Source: a virus
Length of the DNA stretch: 36,633 nucleotides
Direction: 5' to 3' (one strand)
Virus record (IMG/VR): IMGVR_UViG_3300017964_002012
Coordinates: 1-36,633 of that record
Numbering within the stretch: position 1 is the stretch's first letter; every line of letters begins with the position of its first letter. The notes below the pieces were generated by a model. The model had not been told where the DNA came from, searched no databases, and saw only the letters and a program-made list of their open reading frames with translations. Below are positions 2,865 to 25,843 of this stretch, one piece after another. Made by a program: the position numbers and the translations under genes.

Positions 2865-3854
2865 ATGGCAACACTAGCAGAAATAAGAGCGAAACTAAAA
2901 TCTCAAGAAGTTAATCGTTCTTCAACATCAACTGGCGGAGACAACGCCATTTACCCACACTGGAACATACAAGAAGGACAAGAATCGGTAGTAAGATTTT
3001 TACCAGATAAAGATCCAAACAACACTTTCTTTTGGAGTGAGAGAGCAATGATCAAATTGCCTTTCGCGGGTATCAAAGGACAGGCAGATTCTAGACCTGT
3101 ACAAGTACAAGTTCCGTGTATGGAAATGTACGGTAAAACTTGTCCGGTACTAACCGAAGTTAGACCATGGTTCAAAGACAAATCCATGGAAGACATGGGT
3201 AGAAAATACTGGAAGAAGAAAAGTTATATCTTCCAAGGTTTTGTAGTACAAAACCCATTGTCCGAAGATTCAACACCAGAAAATCCAATTAGAAGATTTA
3301 TAATTGGACCACAAATCTTTAATATCATAAAATCAGCATTGATGGATCCAGAAATGGAAGAATTACCAACTGATTCTGTGAGAGGAGTGGACTTTAGAAT
3401 AACTAAAACTTCTAAAGGTGGTTACGCTGATTACTCTACTTCTAAATGGTCAAGAAAAGAAAGAGCACTCGATGAAGCAGAAAGATCTGCAATTGAAAAT
3501 TTCGGGTTGCATAATCTTAATGACTTTAGACCAAAAGAGCCAACCGAAGCAGAAGTAAAAATAATTAAAGAATTATTTGAAAAATCTGTAGAAGGTGAGG
3601 CTTATGATCTGGAAAAATACGGACAATATTATAGACCTGCAGGCGTGGCATATACGGCTACATCAAATGGGTCTAGTCCAGTAACAGAAACTAAAACAGT
3701 AACAGAAAATGTTACTAGTACTGTTGAACCGGTTGAAAAACCAATAAGTGAAGAATCTACAACACCGAGTGTATCTACAACACCATCAAATGGTGATAGT
3801 GCCAAACGAGCTGAAGACATTCTAAAACTTATTAGATCAAGACAAGCAAAGTAA
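2865..3854 (+). CDS. gp32: Single-stranded DNA-binding protein gp32
   Basis: This 329-residue protein resembles T4/cyanophage gp32, which coats ssDNA during replication and recombination and cooperates with UvsX/UvsY. Visible family signatures are VVRFLP at residues 42-47, a Cys-containing loop (C85, C93), and the RKYWKKKSYIFQGFVVQNP segment at about 113-131. T4 gp32 uses three Cys and one His to bind zinc; only two Cys are seen here in that region. After residue 265 there is a Ser/Thr/Pro-rich linker and then a short basic amphipathic end (EDILKLIRSRQAK) instead of T4's acidic tail. The start is fixed by a strong AGGAGG at 2851-2856. It lies directly upstream of uvsX. Confidence 0.9.
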   Translation: MATLAEIRAKLKSQEVNRSSTSTGGDNAIYPHWNIQEGQESVVRFLPDKDPNNTFFWSERAMIKLPFAGIKGQADSRPVQVQVPCMEMYGKTCPVLTEVRPWFKDKSMEDMGRKYWKKKSYIFQGFVVQNPLSEDSTPENPIRRFIIGPQIFNIIKSALMDPEMEELPTDSVRGVDFRITKTSKGGYADYSTSKWSRKERALDEAERSAIENFGLHNLNDFRPKEPTEAEVKIIKELFEKSVEGEAYDLEKYGQYYRPAGVAYTATSNGSSPVTETKTVTENVTSTVEPVEKPISEESTTPSVSTTPSNGDSAKRAEDILKLIRSRQAK

Positions 3855-3862
3855 ACATAAAT

Positions 3863-3912
3863 TACCATTGGCTTCAGTTCAGTTATCGTATTGACACTGG
3901 AGCCGATCGGTA
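3863..3912 (+). other. Long hairpin after gp32 overlapping the next promoter
   Basis: GGCTTCAGT (3870-3878) pairs with ACTGGAGCC (3896-3904) with one G-U pair, and TACC (3863-3866) pairs with GGTA (3909-3912) outside it. No U-run follows on the plus strand, so it is not a classical terminator. The right arm overlaps the -35 box TTGACA (3891-3896). It may protect the gp32 mRNA 3' end or act as an operator. Confidence 0.4.
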
Positions 3913-3919
3913 GTAATAT
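3891..3919 (+). promoter_or_regulatory. Sigma70-like promoter upstream of microprotein and uvsX
   Basis: A perfect TTGACA (3891-3896) is followed 17 bases later by TAATAT (3914-3919); an alternative TATAAT lies at 3917-3922 with a 20-base spacer. The predicted start falls at or next to the ATG at 3926, so the first gene would be read from a leaderless mRNA. Confidence 0.6.
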
Positions 3920-3925
3920 AATACT

Positions 3926-4030
3926 ATGGATATAAAAAGAAAAATTAAAAAAGCAGTTGATTGGTTACTATATCAACAAATTCCTGCATGGATTGTTATA
4001 GTTGCTATCATTGTTTGGATAATATTATAG
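3926..4030 (+). CDS. 34-residue single-span membrane microprotein
   Basis: This short frame fills the gap between gp32 and uvsX. It encodes a basic amphipathic N-terminus (MDIKRKIKKAVDWLLYQQ) followed by one hydrophobic span (PAWIVIVAIIVWIIL) that ends the protein. Such a layout suggests an N-in inner-membrane peptide. No ribosome-binding site precedes it, but a TTGACA/TAATAT promoter ends 6 bases before its ATG. Its stop is 7 bases before the uvsX ATG, so translation of it may feed uvsX. The function is unknown. Coding is supported by position, promoter and the sharp polar/hydrophobic split, not by homology. Confidence 0.5.
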   Translation: MDIKRKIKKAVDWLLYQQIPAWIVIVAIIVWIIL

Positions 4031-4037
4031 GACACAC

Positions 4038-5132
4038 ATGACAAAACCATTTGATATAACAAAATTTAGAAAAAGTATAACAAAATCAATTCAGGGACTG
4101 GGTCTAGGATTTAGTGATCCAACAGATTGGATCTCAACAGGTAATTTTGCATTAAATTATCTTATATCCGGAGACTTCAATAAAGGTATACCGTTAGGAA
4201 AAGTGTCAGTATTGGCAGGTGAATCCGGAGCAGGTAAATCTTATATTGCATCTGGAAACATTATTAAAAATGCTCAGGAACAAGGTATCTTTGTTATACT
4301 GATTGATTCGGAGAATGCATTAGATGAGGCATGGCTTAAAGCACTCGGTGTAGATACTTCCGAAGAAAAATTATTAAAATTATCTTTATCTATGATCGAT
4401 GATGTGGCTAAAACTATATCAGAGTTCATGAAGGGATATAGAGAAGAACACGCAGACAATAAAGAAAATGCACCTAAGATTTTATTTGTAATTGATTCTT
4501 TAGGTATGTTATTAACACCAACAGATGTAAATCAGTTCGAAGCAGGTGAAATGAAAGGTGATCTTGGTAGAAAACCCAAGGCCCTCACAGCACTTGTTAG
4601 AAATACAGTTAATATGTTCGGAAGTTGGAACGTAGGACTGATTGCAACCAATCACACATATGCATCACAAGATATGTTTGATCCAGATGATAAGATATCA
4701 GGCGGACAAGGATTTATCTATGCGTCAAGTATTGTTGTTGCAATGAAGAAATTAAAACTCAAAGAAGATGAAGATGGCAATAAGGTGTCTGATGTTAGAG
4801 GTATAAGAGCGGCTTGTAAAGTTATGAAAACAAGATATGCCAAGCCATTTGAATCTGTACAAGTCAAAATTCCATACGACACAGGAATGGATCCGTATTC
4901 TGGTTTAGTAGATCTATTTGAGAAAAAAGGTTTATTGAAACAAACAGGAAATCGTTTGAAATACGTAGACTCCAACGGTAAGGAAATCATAGAGTTTAGA
5001 AAAAACTGGACTGGTGATAAATTAGATATAGTTATGAAAGATTTTCATAACATAATAGATAAAGAAACCGAAACCGAAACTAAAAAGGGTCTAAAAAAAG
5101 ATGGAAAATCAGATGACAGCAAATCAGATTGA
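4038..5132 (+). CDS. uvsX: UvsX RecA-like recombinase
   Basis: This 364-residue protein is the phage strand-exchange ATPase, which forms filaments on ssDNA and starts recombination-dependent replication. Walker A is GESGAGKS at residues 61-68, and Walker B is seen as ILFVIDSLG in the middle. The DNA-binding core continues through ATNHTYAS and a GGQGFIYASS segment, as in other T4-type UvsX proteins. The C-terminus is Lys/Glu/Asp-rich. It lies between gp32 and uvsY, as expected for a recombination operon. The 3' end overlaps the next gene by 32 bases. No strong Shine-Dalgarno is visible; translation may be coupled to the microprotein upstream. Confidence 0.93.
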   Translation: MTKPFDITKFRKSITKSIQGLGLGFSDPTDWISTGNFALNYLISGDFNKGIPLGKVSVLAGESGAGKSYIASGNIIKNAQEQGIFVILIDSENALDEAWLKALGVDTSEEKLLKLSLSMIDDVAKTISEFMKGYREEHADNKENAPKILFVIDSLGMLLTPTDVNQFEAGEMKGDLGRKPKALTALVRNTVNMFGSWNVGLIATNHTYASQDMFDPDDKISGGQGFIYASSIVVAMKKLKLKEDEDGNKVSDVRGIRAACKVMKTRYAKPFESVQVKIPYDTGMDPYSGLVDLFEKKGLLKQTGNRLKYVDSNGKEIIEFRKNWTGDKLDIVMKDFHNIIDKETETETKKGLKKDGKSDDSKSD

Positions 5133-5340
5133 AGAAATTTGGATAGCAATTAGTAATTACTTGCCTGAAAGAGTTAAATTAGATTGTGCTATCGATTATG
5201 TTAAAACATTAGTTGATATGGATATAGATTCTAAAGTCATTAAAGCCGCAGGTGAATATGATGAAAAATTGCAACAAGCAATAGAAACTGTGCTCGACGA
5301 AGAAATCGACGAAGAAGACAACTATTTTGAGGAAGAATGA
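5101..5340 (+). CDS. Small acidic protein between uvsX and uvsY
   Basis: This 79-residue protein starts inside the uvsX 3' end and overlaps uvsY by 4 bases (ATGA). The C-terminal 15 residues are almost all acidic (EEIDEEDNYFEEE). A second possible start is the ATG at 5113. I do not recognise a domain. Its location inside the uvsX-uvsY pair suggests a role in recombination or DNA mimicry, but that is inference. Coding is well supported by the continuous overlapping gene chain. Confidence 0.7.
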   Translation: MENQMTANQIEEIWIAISNYLPERVKLDCAIDYVKTLVDMDIDSKVIKAAGEYDEKLQQAIETVLDEEIDEEDNYFEEE

Positions 5341-5795
5341 GTTGGTATTCAAAAATAAGTCAAGATATTAGTAAAATACCCGAATGCATACTGTACTTTA
5401 ATAATGAATTAACTTTAGCAAAAAAAGAAATAGGTATATGGGGCAATCTTGAAAAAAATAGTGCCGCAATGCCGGGACAAGTTGAACACCGATTTAATCA
5501 ATTGCAGGAAATCGAGGCTATTCTAGAATATCTTAATATCGAAAAAAGAAGATTACGATCAACTGTATTTAAAAAATTCTTAGAAAACTATCAAAGAGCA
5601 TTATCATCTAGAGACGTAGAAAAGTATGTCGACGGAGAAGCAGATGTGGTCGACATGGAAAAAATTGTAAATGAATTTGCATTAATCAGAAACAAGTGGC
5701 TGGGTTTAGTTAAAGGTCTAGACCAAAAACAATGGCAACTTACTAACATTGTCAAACTTAGAGTCGCTGGTATGGAAGATGCATCAATCAAATAA
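5337..5795 (+). CDS. uvsY: UvsY recombination mediator
   Basis: This 152-residue helical protein matches the size and style of T4-type UvsY, which loads UvsX onto gp32-covered ssDNA. The conserved end of marine phage UvsY is visible: KWLGLVKGLDQKQWQLTNIV followed by KLRVAGMEDASIK, comparable with the helical C-terminal segment of T4 UvsY. The protein is rich in Lys and Glu with long predicted helices. It follows uvsX by one small gene and overlaps that gene by 4 bases and the next by 17 bases, consistent with one operon. Confidence 0.75.
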   Translation: MSWYSKISQDISKIPECILYFNNELTLAKKEIGIWGNLEKNSAAMPGQVEHRFNQLQEIEAILEYLNIEKRRLRSTVFKKFLENYQRALSSRDVEKYVDGEADVVDMEKIVNEFALIRNKWLGLVKGLDQKQWQLTNIVKLRVAGMEDASIK

Positions 5796-24000: not shown

Positions 24001-24816
24001 ATGCAAACAGTTACAAGGTATTTAATAAACAATGTGGTAATAGCCTACATTAATGGTTATAATGGAAGGAACTCAAAAGTGTACGATAGACGTCTAAAAG
24101 TGTATAAAGGTGTATCAAATCCAATAACATTTGTATTCAAAAACGAAGATCAAGCAGTACAAAGCATTACGACCAAAGAATTTGAATTTGATCTGATCGA
24201 CACAAAAAACGACAGGTCAGTCATTAAAAAAACATTAACACTTGTAGACGACGGGTCAACTGTTAGCACGAGAGGAAAAGCAACAGTAACATTAACCGAC
24301 GGAGATTTATTAGATCTAGAGCCGGGATTTTACAATTACAGTATTAGAGAAATTGCAATAGGAGATGATTCTACTGTGACTTATACTGTGACCTATGCTA
24401 ATACCTCATATAATTCTGAAGGGACACTTGAGATACTAGACGGTGCATTTCCAAAATTTGTGCCTAGCAATGAAACAATTACATGGCCTGTAACAACAGG
24501 ACCATATTCAAAAACATCTGCTTACATCGACGGTAAGTCTAGTCAAAATGGTAATAACTCTTTGCACACGATCGCTGTTTATACCAACGGATTTACTGGA
24601 ACATTTAAGATACAAGGCACATTGGTCACAACAGCAGTACAAGACTCGGACTTCGCAGACATCACAGCAACTGATCAAACCAACCCAATTACATTTACCA
24701 ATTCAACTGGAGTCAAATACTTTAATTTCATTGGAGTTTGGGAAAACATCAGATTCAGTTGGCAAAACACCGGCAGTAACAACGGTGTGATTGACAAAAT
24801 CTTATATAGACAGTAA
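24001..24816 (+). CDS. Beta-rich probable virion structural protein
   Basis: This 271-residue protein consists of alternating beta strands and turns, with many Thr, Ser, Asn and Gly. The first ~140 residues look like an Ig-like or baseplate-type beta-sandwich (PITFVFKNED ... SVIKKTLTLVDDG ... FYNYSIREI). The second ~130 residues are another beta domain ending in WENIRFSWQNTGSNNGVIDK. There is no signal peptide, Cys or enzyme motif. A late-type promoter motif precedes it. A tail, baseplate or head-decoration protein is likely; the exact place is unknown. It interrupts the replication genes. Confidence 0.65.
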   Translation: MQTVTRYLINNVVIAYINGYNGRNSKVYDRRLKVYKGVSNPITFVFKNEDQAVQSITTKEFEFDLIDTKNDRSVIKKTLTLVDDGSTVSTRGKATVTLTDGDLLDLEPGFYNYSIREIAIGDDSTVTYTVTYANTSYNSEGTLEILDGAFPKFVPSNETITWPVTTGPYSKTSAYIDGKSSQNGNNSLHTIAVYTNGFTGTFKIQGTLVTTAVQDSDFADITATDQTNPITFTNSTGVKYFNFIGVWENIRFSWQNTGSNNGVIDKILYRQ

Positions 24817-24826
24817 AATGTAGAAT

Positions 24827-25843
24827 ATGAATTTAATTCAGTCTACTATTCTGAATTCGCTTCCTAGCGGAAAGAAAAAAACACCCTCTGGTTGGTTATC
24901 TTTTAATGCTCCGTGTTGTATACACAACGGCACAGGTGCTGATAAAAGAAAACGTGGAGGCATCATGACTTCTGCCGACGGTACTTTAAGTTATCATTGT
25001 TTTAATTGTGGTTATAAAACTTCGTATGTTGTTGGAAGAAAACTCAATGCGAAAACAAGACAACTCATGAGCTGGTTAGGAATTAGTGAAGAAACTATAA
25101 GAAAATTATCAATAGAGGCCATGCGTTATGAAGAATCCGGCAATACATTTGAAACAAAAAAAAATATAAATTTTGCTATCAAGACGTTGCCAAAAAATTC
25201 ACACACACTAGATTATTGGTTGGAAAAATATATTGCAAAAGATCTAACAGAAGTTCAATATAAAAAAATTGATCAATTATTGAACTACTTAAAAAAAAGA
25301 GGTATTTCTCCCGATTGGTATAAATTTTATTATAGTCCGGATCAAACAGGAGATTTCCATAGAAGAGTAATTGTGCCTTTTTATTGGAAAAATAATATAG
25401 TAGGACACACAGGAAGAATTTTTGATACAAGAAACAAGGAAGTTAAATATTGGACAGAAACACAACCGGGTTATGTGTTTAACATAGATGTCCAGGATTG
25501 GAAAAGAAAGTTTGTGATTGTAACCGAAGGTCCTTTTGATGCTATCACTGTTTCGGGTGTGAGCATTTTAGGTTCAGAGGTCAATGATACGCAGAAAGAT
25601 ATTATAAACAGTTTGAATAGACAGGTAATTGTAGTGCCGGATCAAGACAAAGCCGGAGAAAAACTAATAGACCAAGCAATAGAGTTTGGGTGGTCTGTAT
25701 CTTTTCCAGAATGGCAAAAAGGAGTTGATGATGTGGCCGAATCTGTGTTACAATATGGAAGATTATATACAATACAGTCGATACTAAAAGGAACAGAAAC
25801 TAATAAACTTAAGATCGATTTAAAAAGAAAAATAAATGGCTGA
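24827..25843 (+). CDS. gp61: DNA primase, gp61-like
   Basis: This 338-residue protein has an N-terminal zinc ribbon (C30/C31, H33, then C58 and C61 in YHCFNCGYK) and a TOPRIM domain: VTEGPFDAI with E234, then VVPDQDKAGE with D272 and D274. These are the metal-binding acidic residues for RNA primer synthesis. Length and layout match T4 gp61, which works with gp41 helicase at the fork. The 3' end overlaps gp41 by 8 bases, in keeping with a two-gene primosome unit. Confidence 0.9.
   Translation: MNLIQSTILNSLPSGKKKTPSGWLSFNAPCCIHNGTGADKRKRGGIMTSADGTLSYHCFNCGYKTSYVVGRKLNAKTRQLMSWLGISEETIRKLSIEAMRYEESGNTFETKKNINFAIKTLPKNSHTLDYWLEKYIAKDLTEVQYKKIDQLLNYLKKRGISPDWYKFYYSPDQTGDFHRRVIVPFYWKNNIVGHTGRIFDTRNKEVKYWTETQPGYVFNIDVQDWKRKFVIVTEGPFDAITVSGVSILGSEVNDTQKDIINSLNRQVIVVPDQDKAGEKLIDQAIEFGWSVSFPEWQKGVDDVAESVLQYGRLYTIQSILKGTETNKLKIDLKRKING

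Follow-up and report, generated by a model that had tools for sequence, protein, structure and literature searches.

The window, that is, the whole stretch of DNA analyzed here, is a 36.6-kb virus record given as one strand. It carries a short open reading frame between genes for two recombination proteins, and the features of this locus are as follows.

2865 to 3854, + strand: gp32-like single-strand DNA binding protein (Pfam PF08804, E 1.5e-07; phrog_1192, E 4.3e-69)
3861 to 3914, + strand: inverted repeat or RNA hairpin directly 3' of the gp32 stop codon, with 23 pairs in the predicted fold
3891 to 3896, + strand: -35 hexamer TTGACA, near the apex of the hairpin (in the loop by a simple stem search; in the loop-proximal strand of the minimum-energy fold)
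3914 to 3919, + strand: -10 hexamer TAATAT, 17 nt after the -35 hexamer and 6 nt from the ATG
3926 to 4030, + strand: microprotein gene of 34 aa with an ATG start and a TAG stop (4028 to 4030), marked by conservation and protein-level purifying selection
4029 to 4032, + strand: AGGA, the likely Shine-Dalgarno sequence of uvsX, which shares bases with the microprotein stop codon
4038 to 5132, + strand: UvsX/RecA-like recombinase (Pfam PF00154, E 5e-15; phrog_97, E 1.6e-65)
5337 to 5795, + strand: UvsY-like recombination mediator (phrog_231, E 2.1e-14)

An acidic ORF of 79 aa (5101 to 5340) overlaps the end of uvsX, and similar frames occupy the same place in loci L284 and L285.

A conserved short gene between gp32 and uvsX

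The translation of ORF 3926-4030 is MDIKRKIKKAVDWLLYQQIPAWIVIVAIIVWIIL. As the initial annotation had claimed, this 34-residue frame is contained entirely in the gap between the end of gp32 (3854) and the start of uvsX (4038), and it encodes a basic N-terminus (net charge +3) and a single hydrophobic span, which runs to the stop codon. The accompanying claim that the N-terminus is amphipathic was not supported, as its hydrophobic moment of 0.37 was reached by 19% of shuffled sequences and the moment is 0.03 in a divergent form of the protein (see below). The basic segment is followed by the motif W-x-L-Y-x-Q-x-P-A-W and then by the C-terminal span. From the proline on there are 15 hydrophobic residues with a mean KD value of 2.91, a short stretch for crossing the membrane fully unless neighboring residues contribute, and inspection of the span revealed no polar face. 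AlphaFold predicted one helix (residues 3-33; pLDDT 85.9, pTM 0.37), and this single modeled helix is uninformative on function.

Related loci were collected by searching IMG/VR with uvsX and with gp32, and the best 80 loci from each search gave a combined set of 159 distinct loci. By motif search, 21 of them, in addition to the window, carried the frame on the + strand; it lay beside uvsX in all 21 except L111, where it is 946 nt from uvsX. Nineteen members aligned without internal gaps, with 10 of the 34 columns invariant, including W13, Y16, Q18, P20, A21, W22 and W31. Profile scans with the microprotein added further loci (the best 80 of 154 and the best 80 of 143 stretches). All counts refer to loci or to distinct sequences; some contigs were fetched twice, and many loci were fetched via the microprotein itself. 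A microprotein match (E<1e-5) was present in 142 of the 285 loci collected, the window's own locus (L240) included; 131 of these matches had both gp32 and uvsX within 1.5 kb, eight lay beside uvsX with gp32 not found on the retrieved stretch, and three were elsewhere.

Coding potential was assessed in a set of 142 sequences, from which the truncated match of L012 had been removed and to which the window had been added, and of which 76 were distinct when the upstream 45 nt were included. Gene lengths across the 142 sequences were only 93, 96, 99 or 102 nt. The pooled pN/pS for 69 distinct 30-codon genes was 0.24 (pS 0.60, pN 0.144), and the same test gave 0.80 and 2.80 in the shifted frames. 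While pN was less than pS in 2343 of the 2346 pairs, these pairs are non-independent; the contrast between frames is strong. Mean entropy at codon positions 1, 2 and 3 was 0.58, 0.14 and 1.01, respectively. The initial annotation had named a lack of conservation of the frame in relatives as evidence against its claim; our results showed that ORF 3926-4030 is a genuine, conserved gene under protein-level selection.

No model of Pfam, NCBIfam, PHROGs or PADLOC reached its cut-off for the microprotein family. The sub-cut-off matches that we rejected were SecE (TIGR00964, NCBIfam; best E 0.025, in 2 of 19 members) and spanin2 (NF037952, NCBIfam; best E 0.084, in 10 of 19 members), and the other lowest were phrog_22320 (E 0.11), Pfam PF11587 (E 0.13) and PF15013 (E 0.24). 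A PDB search with the microprotein gave no match at E 10. With three queries (the window protein, a consensus-like sequence and the divergent form), tblastn likewise found nothing at that threshold among 50,697 named phage records, a negative that is weak because the low-complexity filter was on and the query is short and hydrophobic. Nothing in the available parts of the literature searched, including PMC11323111, was recognized as the microprotein gene. Small membrane proteins of phages are an already known kind; this family appears to be undescribed in the databases and in those parts of the literature.

A promoter within a hairpin

The hairpin downstream of gp32 has a predicted energy of -28.5 kcal/mol, versus -10.1 +/- 2.6 kcal/mol for shuffled sequences (z -7.1), and 0 of 200 shuffles were as good. 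The position of TTGAC relative to the best stem was determined in 117 near relatives: it is in the loop or where the loop meets the 3' arm in 102, in the 5' arm in one, and not found there in 14, of which 13 have other cargo. Because a MAFFT alignment of the hairpin misplaced several 5' arms, we relied on an arm-swap test. A hairpin's own arms paired at 9 of 9 positions in all but two of 59 distinct cases (57 of 59), and arms exchanged between dissimilar relatives did so in 625 of 2576 (24%). Judged by these pairings, the arms covary across relatives. A search for known RNA families gave one chance-level match only, located inside uvsX. The hairpin may end or protect the gp32 mRNA while carrying the -35 hexamer of the downstream promoter.

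The TTGACA/TAATAT promoter reported next to the ATG is indeed present, although its match alone is at chance level: 12 promoter-like sites were observed between positions 2500 and 5600, versus 12.0 +/- 3.1 in shuffled sequences. We therefore rejected promoter significance based on the window alone, and the match carries weight because of its conservation in relatives rather than window statistics. The distance from the -10 box to the ATG was exactly 6 nt in 55 of the 76 distinct genes, 5 nt in five, 9 nt in eight, and 0, 2, 8 and 12 nt in one each; four genes were without such a promoter. When 75 sequences were retested, TANNNT was found at that place in 55, followed by 23 different 6-nt spacers. 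When the -10 position was slid along these 75 sequences, 54 matched at 6 nt, and TA-rich repeats produced further matches, 29 of them at 3 nt and 22 at 9 nt. The 6-nt distance is tied to the choice of a 17-nt spacer, because alternative -10 readings shifted by 3 nt in either direction are also frequent; in the window, the alternative is TATAAT at 3917-3922, with a spacer of 20 nt.

A different TTGACA/TATAAT promoter precedes the microprotein gene in L119, L169, L176 and L203, in the first of these after a 272-aa cargo ORF. In 21 listed relatives without the microprotein, uvsX starts after the same promoter as that of the window; its start is 6 nt after the -10 box in two of them (L001 and L007, both close relatives) and 8 to 23 nt after that -10 position in the remaining 19.

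Transcription begins approximately 6-7 nt downstream of a -10 box. With the -10 box 6 nt from the ATG, the transcript is predicted to start on the A of the ATG or on a neighboring nucleotide, which would make the microprotein mRNA leaderless. It is the sigma-70-like character of the promoter that suggests early expression.

Distribution and genomic neighborhoods

Presence and absence of the gene were scored in 111 distinct loci containing gp32 and uvsX that were fetched only through gp32 or uvsX. Of the 42 loci with a uvsX identity of 81% or more, 14 had the microprotein, as did 2 of the 69 loci below this value. A quick uvsX tree of 117 near genes, which is enriched for carriers since many were fetched by the microprotein, contained 89 carriers and 28 non-carriers; the minimum was 16 changes of state, of which well supported branches enforce 12, compared to a mean of 25 for shuffled states. 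Thus, the microprotein is inherited over short distances yet often gained or lost, and these changes, together with its patchy presence in close relatives, mark it as an accessory gene. Gene order also varies, with L111 having the microprotein followed by an epimerase-like ORF (identified by eye) and then uvsX.

Other cargo occupies the gp32-uvsX gap in several relatives, namely an ORF of ~270 aa (MLYEIDG.PAFRI...), e.g. at 2183-2992 of L022, for which neither PHROGs nor Pfam gave a convincing assignment (best phrog_31031, E 0.0073). To look for cellular homologues, genome_contigs was scanned once with one short pattern. The two loci obtained are both on phage-like contigs with gp32, the microprotein and uvsX; these contigs belong to MAGs labeled Pelagibacter and Rickettsiales, and binning is no proof of host. 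In a scan of 18 related records for second copies, 10 had one match each at E<=1, and eight of these were the known copies. A weak match in the 209-kb record behind L141 looked like chance upon inspection, and the record behind L066 had one weak match (E 0.13).

Among named phages, the window gp32 resembles those of jumbo myophages (46.8% identity over 99% of the protein for the PA5oct group, 57.9% over 79% for Sinorhizobium phage Phosso and 51.0% over 80% for Atu_ph07). As in the window, gp32 is followed by a UvsX/RecA-like gene in the jumbo phages Phosso, Atu_ph07, Vibrio 2.275.O, Ettore and 121Q; Ettore has two other genes in between, and in four of the five the two genes are adjacent, with a hairpin-like inverted repeat, seen by eye, after gp32. 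Unlike the window, these five phages have no microprotein annotated or matched, and TTGAC is absent from the gap in the four with adjacent genes. Since an inverted repeat is present in four named jumbo phages without TTGAC, the hairpin looks older than the promoter.

Close homologues were also found away from gp32 and uvsX, on the contig represented by both L236 and L246 and in L262, where neither gene was found on the retrieved stretch. In both places the microprotein gene overlaps a 64-aa ORF (phrog_1811 in L262) at the latter's end and directly precedes an FmdB-like gene, approximately 0.9 kb upstream of an M15 endolysin gene. The homologue in this FmdB slot also lies downstream of a second endolysin-like gene. 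Among named phages, the FmdB-like gene is closest to those of the Kyanoviridae pelagimyophages Mosig EXVC030M and HTVC008M, in which the FmdB-like region corresponds to this second context of the family and no microprotein match was found. The best 80 of 229 loci from an FmdB-like protein search included four with the microprotein family. Two of these (L286 and L302) are the same two contigs as L236/L246 and L262, and the other two (L301 and L303) carry the divergent form, MIEPIDTKKVKEWF...PNWVLVVIV.IWILA (E 4.7e-6 and 2.6e-6), which lies in the FmdB slot of L301 and 565 nt upstream of the FmdB-like gene of L303. Unrelated single-span ORFs of 31, 41 or 62 aa occupy this slot elsewhere (L287, L304, L318 and others), and there was no gap before the FmdB-like gene in 33 of the 80 loci.

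Scanning with the divergent form yielded 22 loci and a third context. In L380, the locus of this set that was inspected in detail, the divergent form overlaps the end of a phage-borne gene for ribosomal protein bL12 (3642-4004) and is followed by a PAAR-like gene (just under cut-off) and by gp25 and gp6 baseplate genes. The upstream stretches of 14 further divergent-form loci resemble that of L380, that of L382 least. The wider family is built on short hydrophobic alignments, and low complexity could contribute to the scores of the divergent form.

Possible functions of the microprotein

From these results, the part of the initial interpretation that describes a membrane microprotein with its own promoter is well supported comparatively, and the part that has it tethering recombination proteins to the membrane is disfavored. 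The other option named there, an action on the host membrane, is plausible, and the microprotein probably acts there rather than in recombination. Protein-level selection, the invariant motif, an exchangeable apolar core, accessory spread and varied neighborhoods together fit a stand-alone small membrane protein with a host partner, and the same features argue against both a recombination tether and a leader peptide.

The reading that we favor, with confidence that falls a little short of even, is that of a mobile, C-terminally anchored accessory microprotein that docks on a host inner-membrane protein and changes its activity. We infer membrane insertion, topology, transcription start, host partner and timing. 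The protein of 31-34 residues would have a basic N-terminus, probably cytoplasmic, and one C-terminal transmembrane helix, with the W-x-L-Y-x-Q-x-P-A-W motif, which is kept throughout the main family, at the junction of the helix and the cytoplasmic face, and with a membrane core free to swap I, V, L, A and M. It would most likely dock on a host membrane protein and shift its activity to the benefit of the phage, by analogy to CydX, KdpF and AcrZ with their partners. In the window, its gene would be the first one expressed from a sigma-70-like promoter with a -35 box embedded in the hairpin after gp32, and the leaderless transcript, starting at or next to the ATG, would continue into uvsX.

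CydX, KdpF, AcrZ and MgtR are small single-span regulators of bacterial membrane complexes, of approximately 30-50 residues. The microprotein is like them in its size and its one putative transmembrane helix; it differs in being phage-borne, and it has no match near cut-off to this type in Pfam or NCBIfam and none in the PDB at E 10. TisB and Ldr (type I toxin peptides) and pinholins are also short, with a basic end and one hydrophobic span, features that the microprotein shares. Unlike them, it reaches the cut-off of no model, shows no polar face on inspection and is not found regularly in a lysis or toxin-antitoxin setting.

The strongest rival, owing to the second context near an endolysin gene, is a peptide that times lysis or damages the membrane (holin-, antiholin- or type I toxin-like) and that weakens or guards the inner membrane. 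Its size and single span fit, and on two pelagimyophage-like contigs the homologue sits upstream of FmdB-like and M15 endolysin genes and downstream of another endolysin-like gene, in a slot that is interchangeable with unrelated small membrane ORFs. However, the identified neighbors at gp32-uvsX, where part of the window ORFs are annotated, are recombination and not lysis genes, the third context consists of baseplate genes, and the span shows by inspection no polar face for a pore. Furthermore, no holin, spanin, toxin or lysis model reached its cut-off (best spanin2_3, E 0.084), and the early expression suggested by the sigma-70-like promoter is unsuited to a holin. We consider this function unlikely.

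Alternatively, the frame might be a leader peptide whose translation sets that of uvsX by coupling, the protein itself being incidental. Consistent with such coupling, the microprotein stop codon overlaps the AGGA of uvsX, and 56 of 71 distinct sequences have an SD-like tetramer downstream of this codon. Selection acts on the amino acids of an intact frame, however, some copies are not adjacent to uvsX, and the 21 relatives noted above start uvsX after the same promoter without a microprotein, which together leave this explanation improbable.

A tether that holds UvsX or gp32, with the replication machinery, at the membrane is less probable still, and we regard it as very doubtful. It is favored by the proximity of both genes in 131 of the 142 matches and of uvsX alone in eight more, many of them fetched with gp32 or uvsX, but adjacency says little because gene position tends to be inherited. 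Homologues reside in other contexts (L236/L246, L262 and the divergent form), 28 of the 42 close relatives fetched with gp32 or uvsX are without the microprotein, the gene order is changed in L111, and the five named jumbo phages have none annotated or matched. The presence of members beside unrelated genes in pelagimyophage-like contigs likewise argues against it.

Finally, a frame open by chance in AT-rich intergenic DNA, where short frames are common and the promoter match by itself does not exceed chance, is ruled out for practical purposes by the selection test, along with recurrence and invariant columns in relatives.

A broader proposal, which we consider possible but decidedly uncertain, is that a hitherto undescribed family of mobile microproteins with a C-terminal anchor is common to two marine T4-like lineages (a jumbo-phage relative and a pelagimyophage-like one) and acts on one conserved host membrane complex, and that in the jumbo lineage its mRNA is leaderless and comes from a promoter hidden in the hairpin after gp32. 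Proteins of less than 40 residues are easily missed in phage annotation, and searches of the libraries gave no counterpart for this one. With a motif that is fixed and an occurrence in several neighborhoods, it would be well suited as bait to find a host membrane target in marine bacteria, and the hairpin-embedded promoter with an ATG at the predicted transcript start offers a testable leaderless case in a marine phage lineage.

Elsewhere in the window, a TTGACA/TAAAAT promoter-like site (24780-24829) lies 7 nt before the ATG (24827) of a 338-aa ORF, which may also have a leaderless start.
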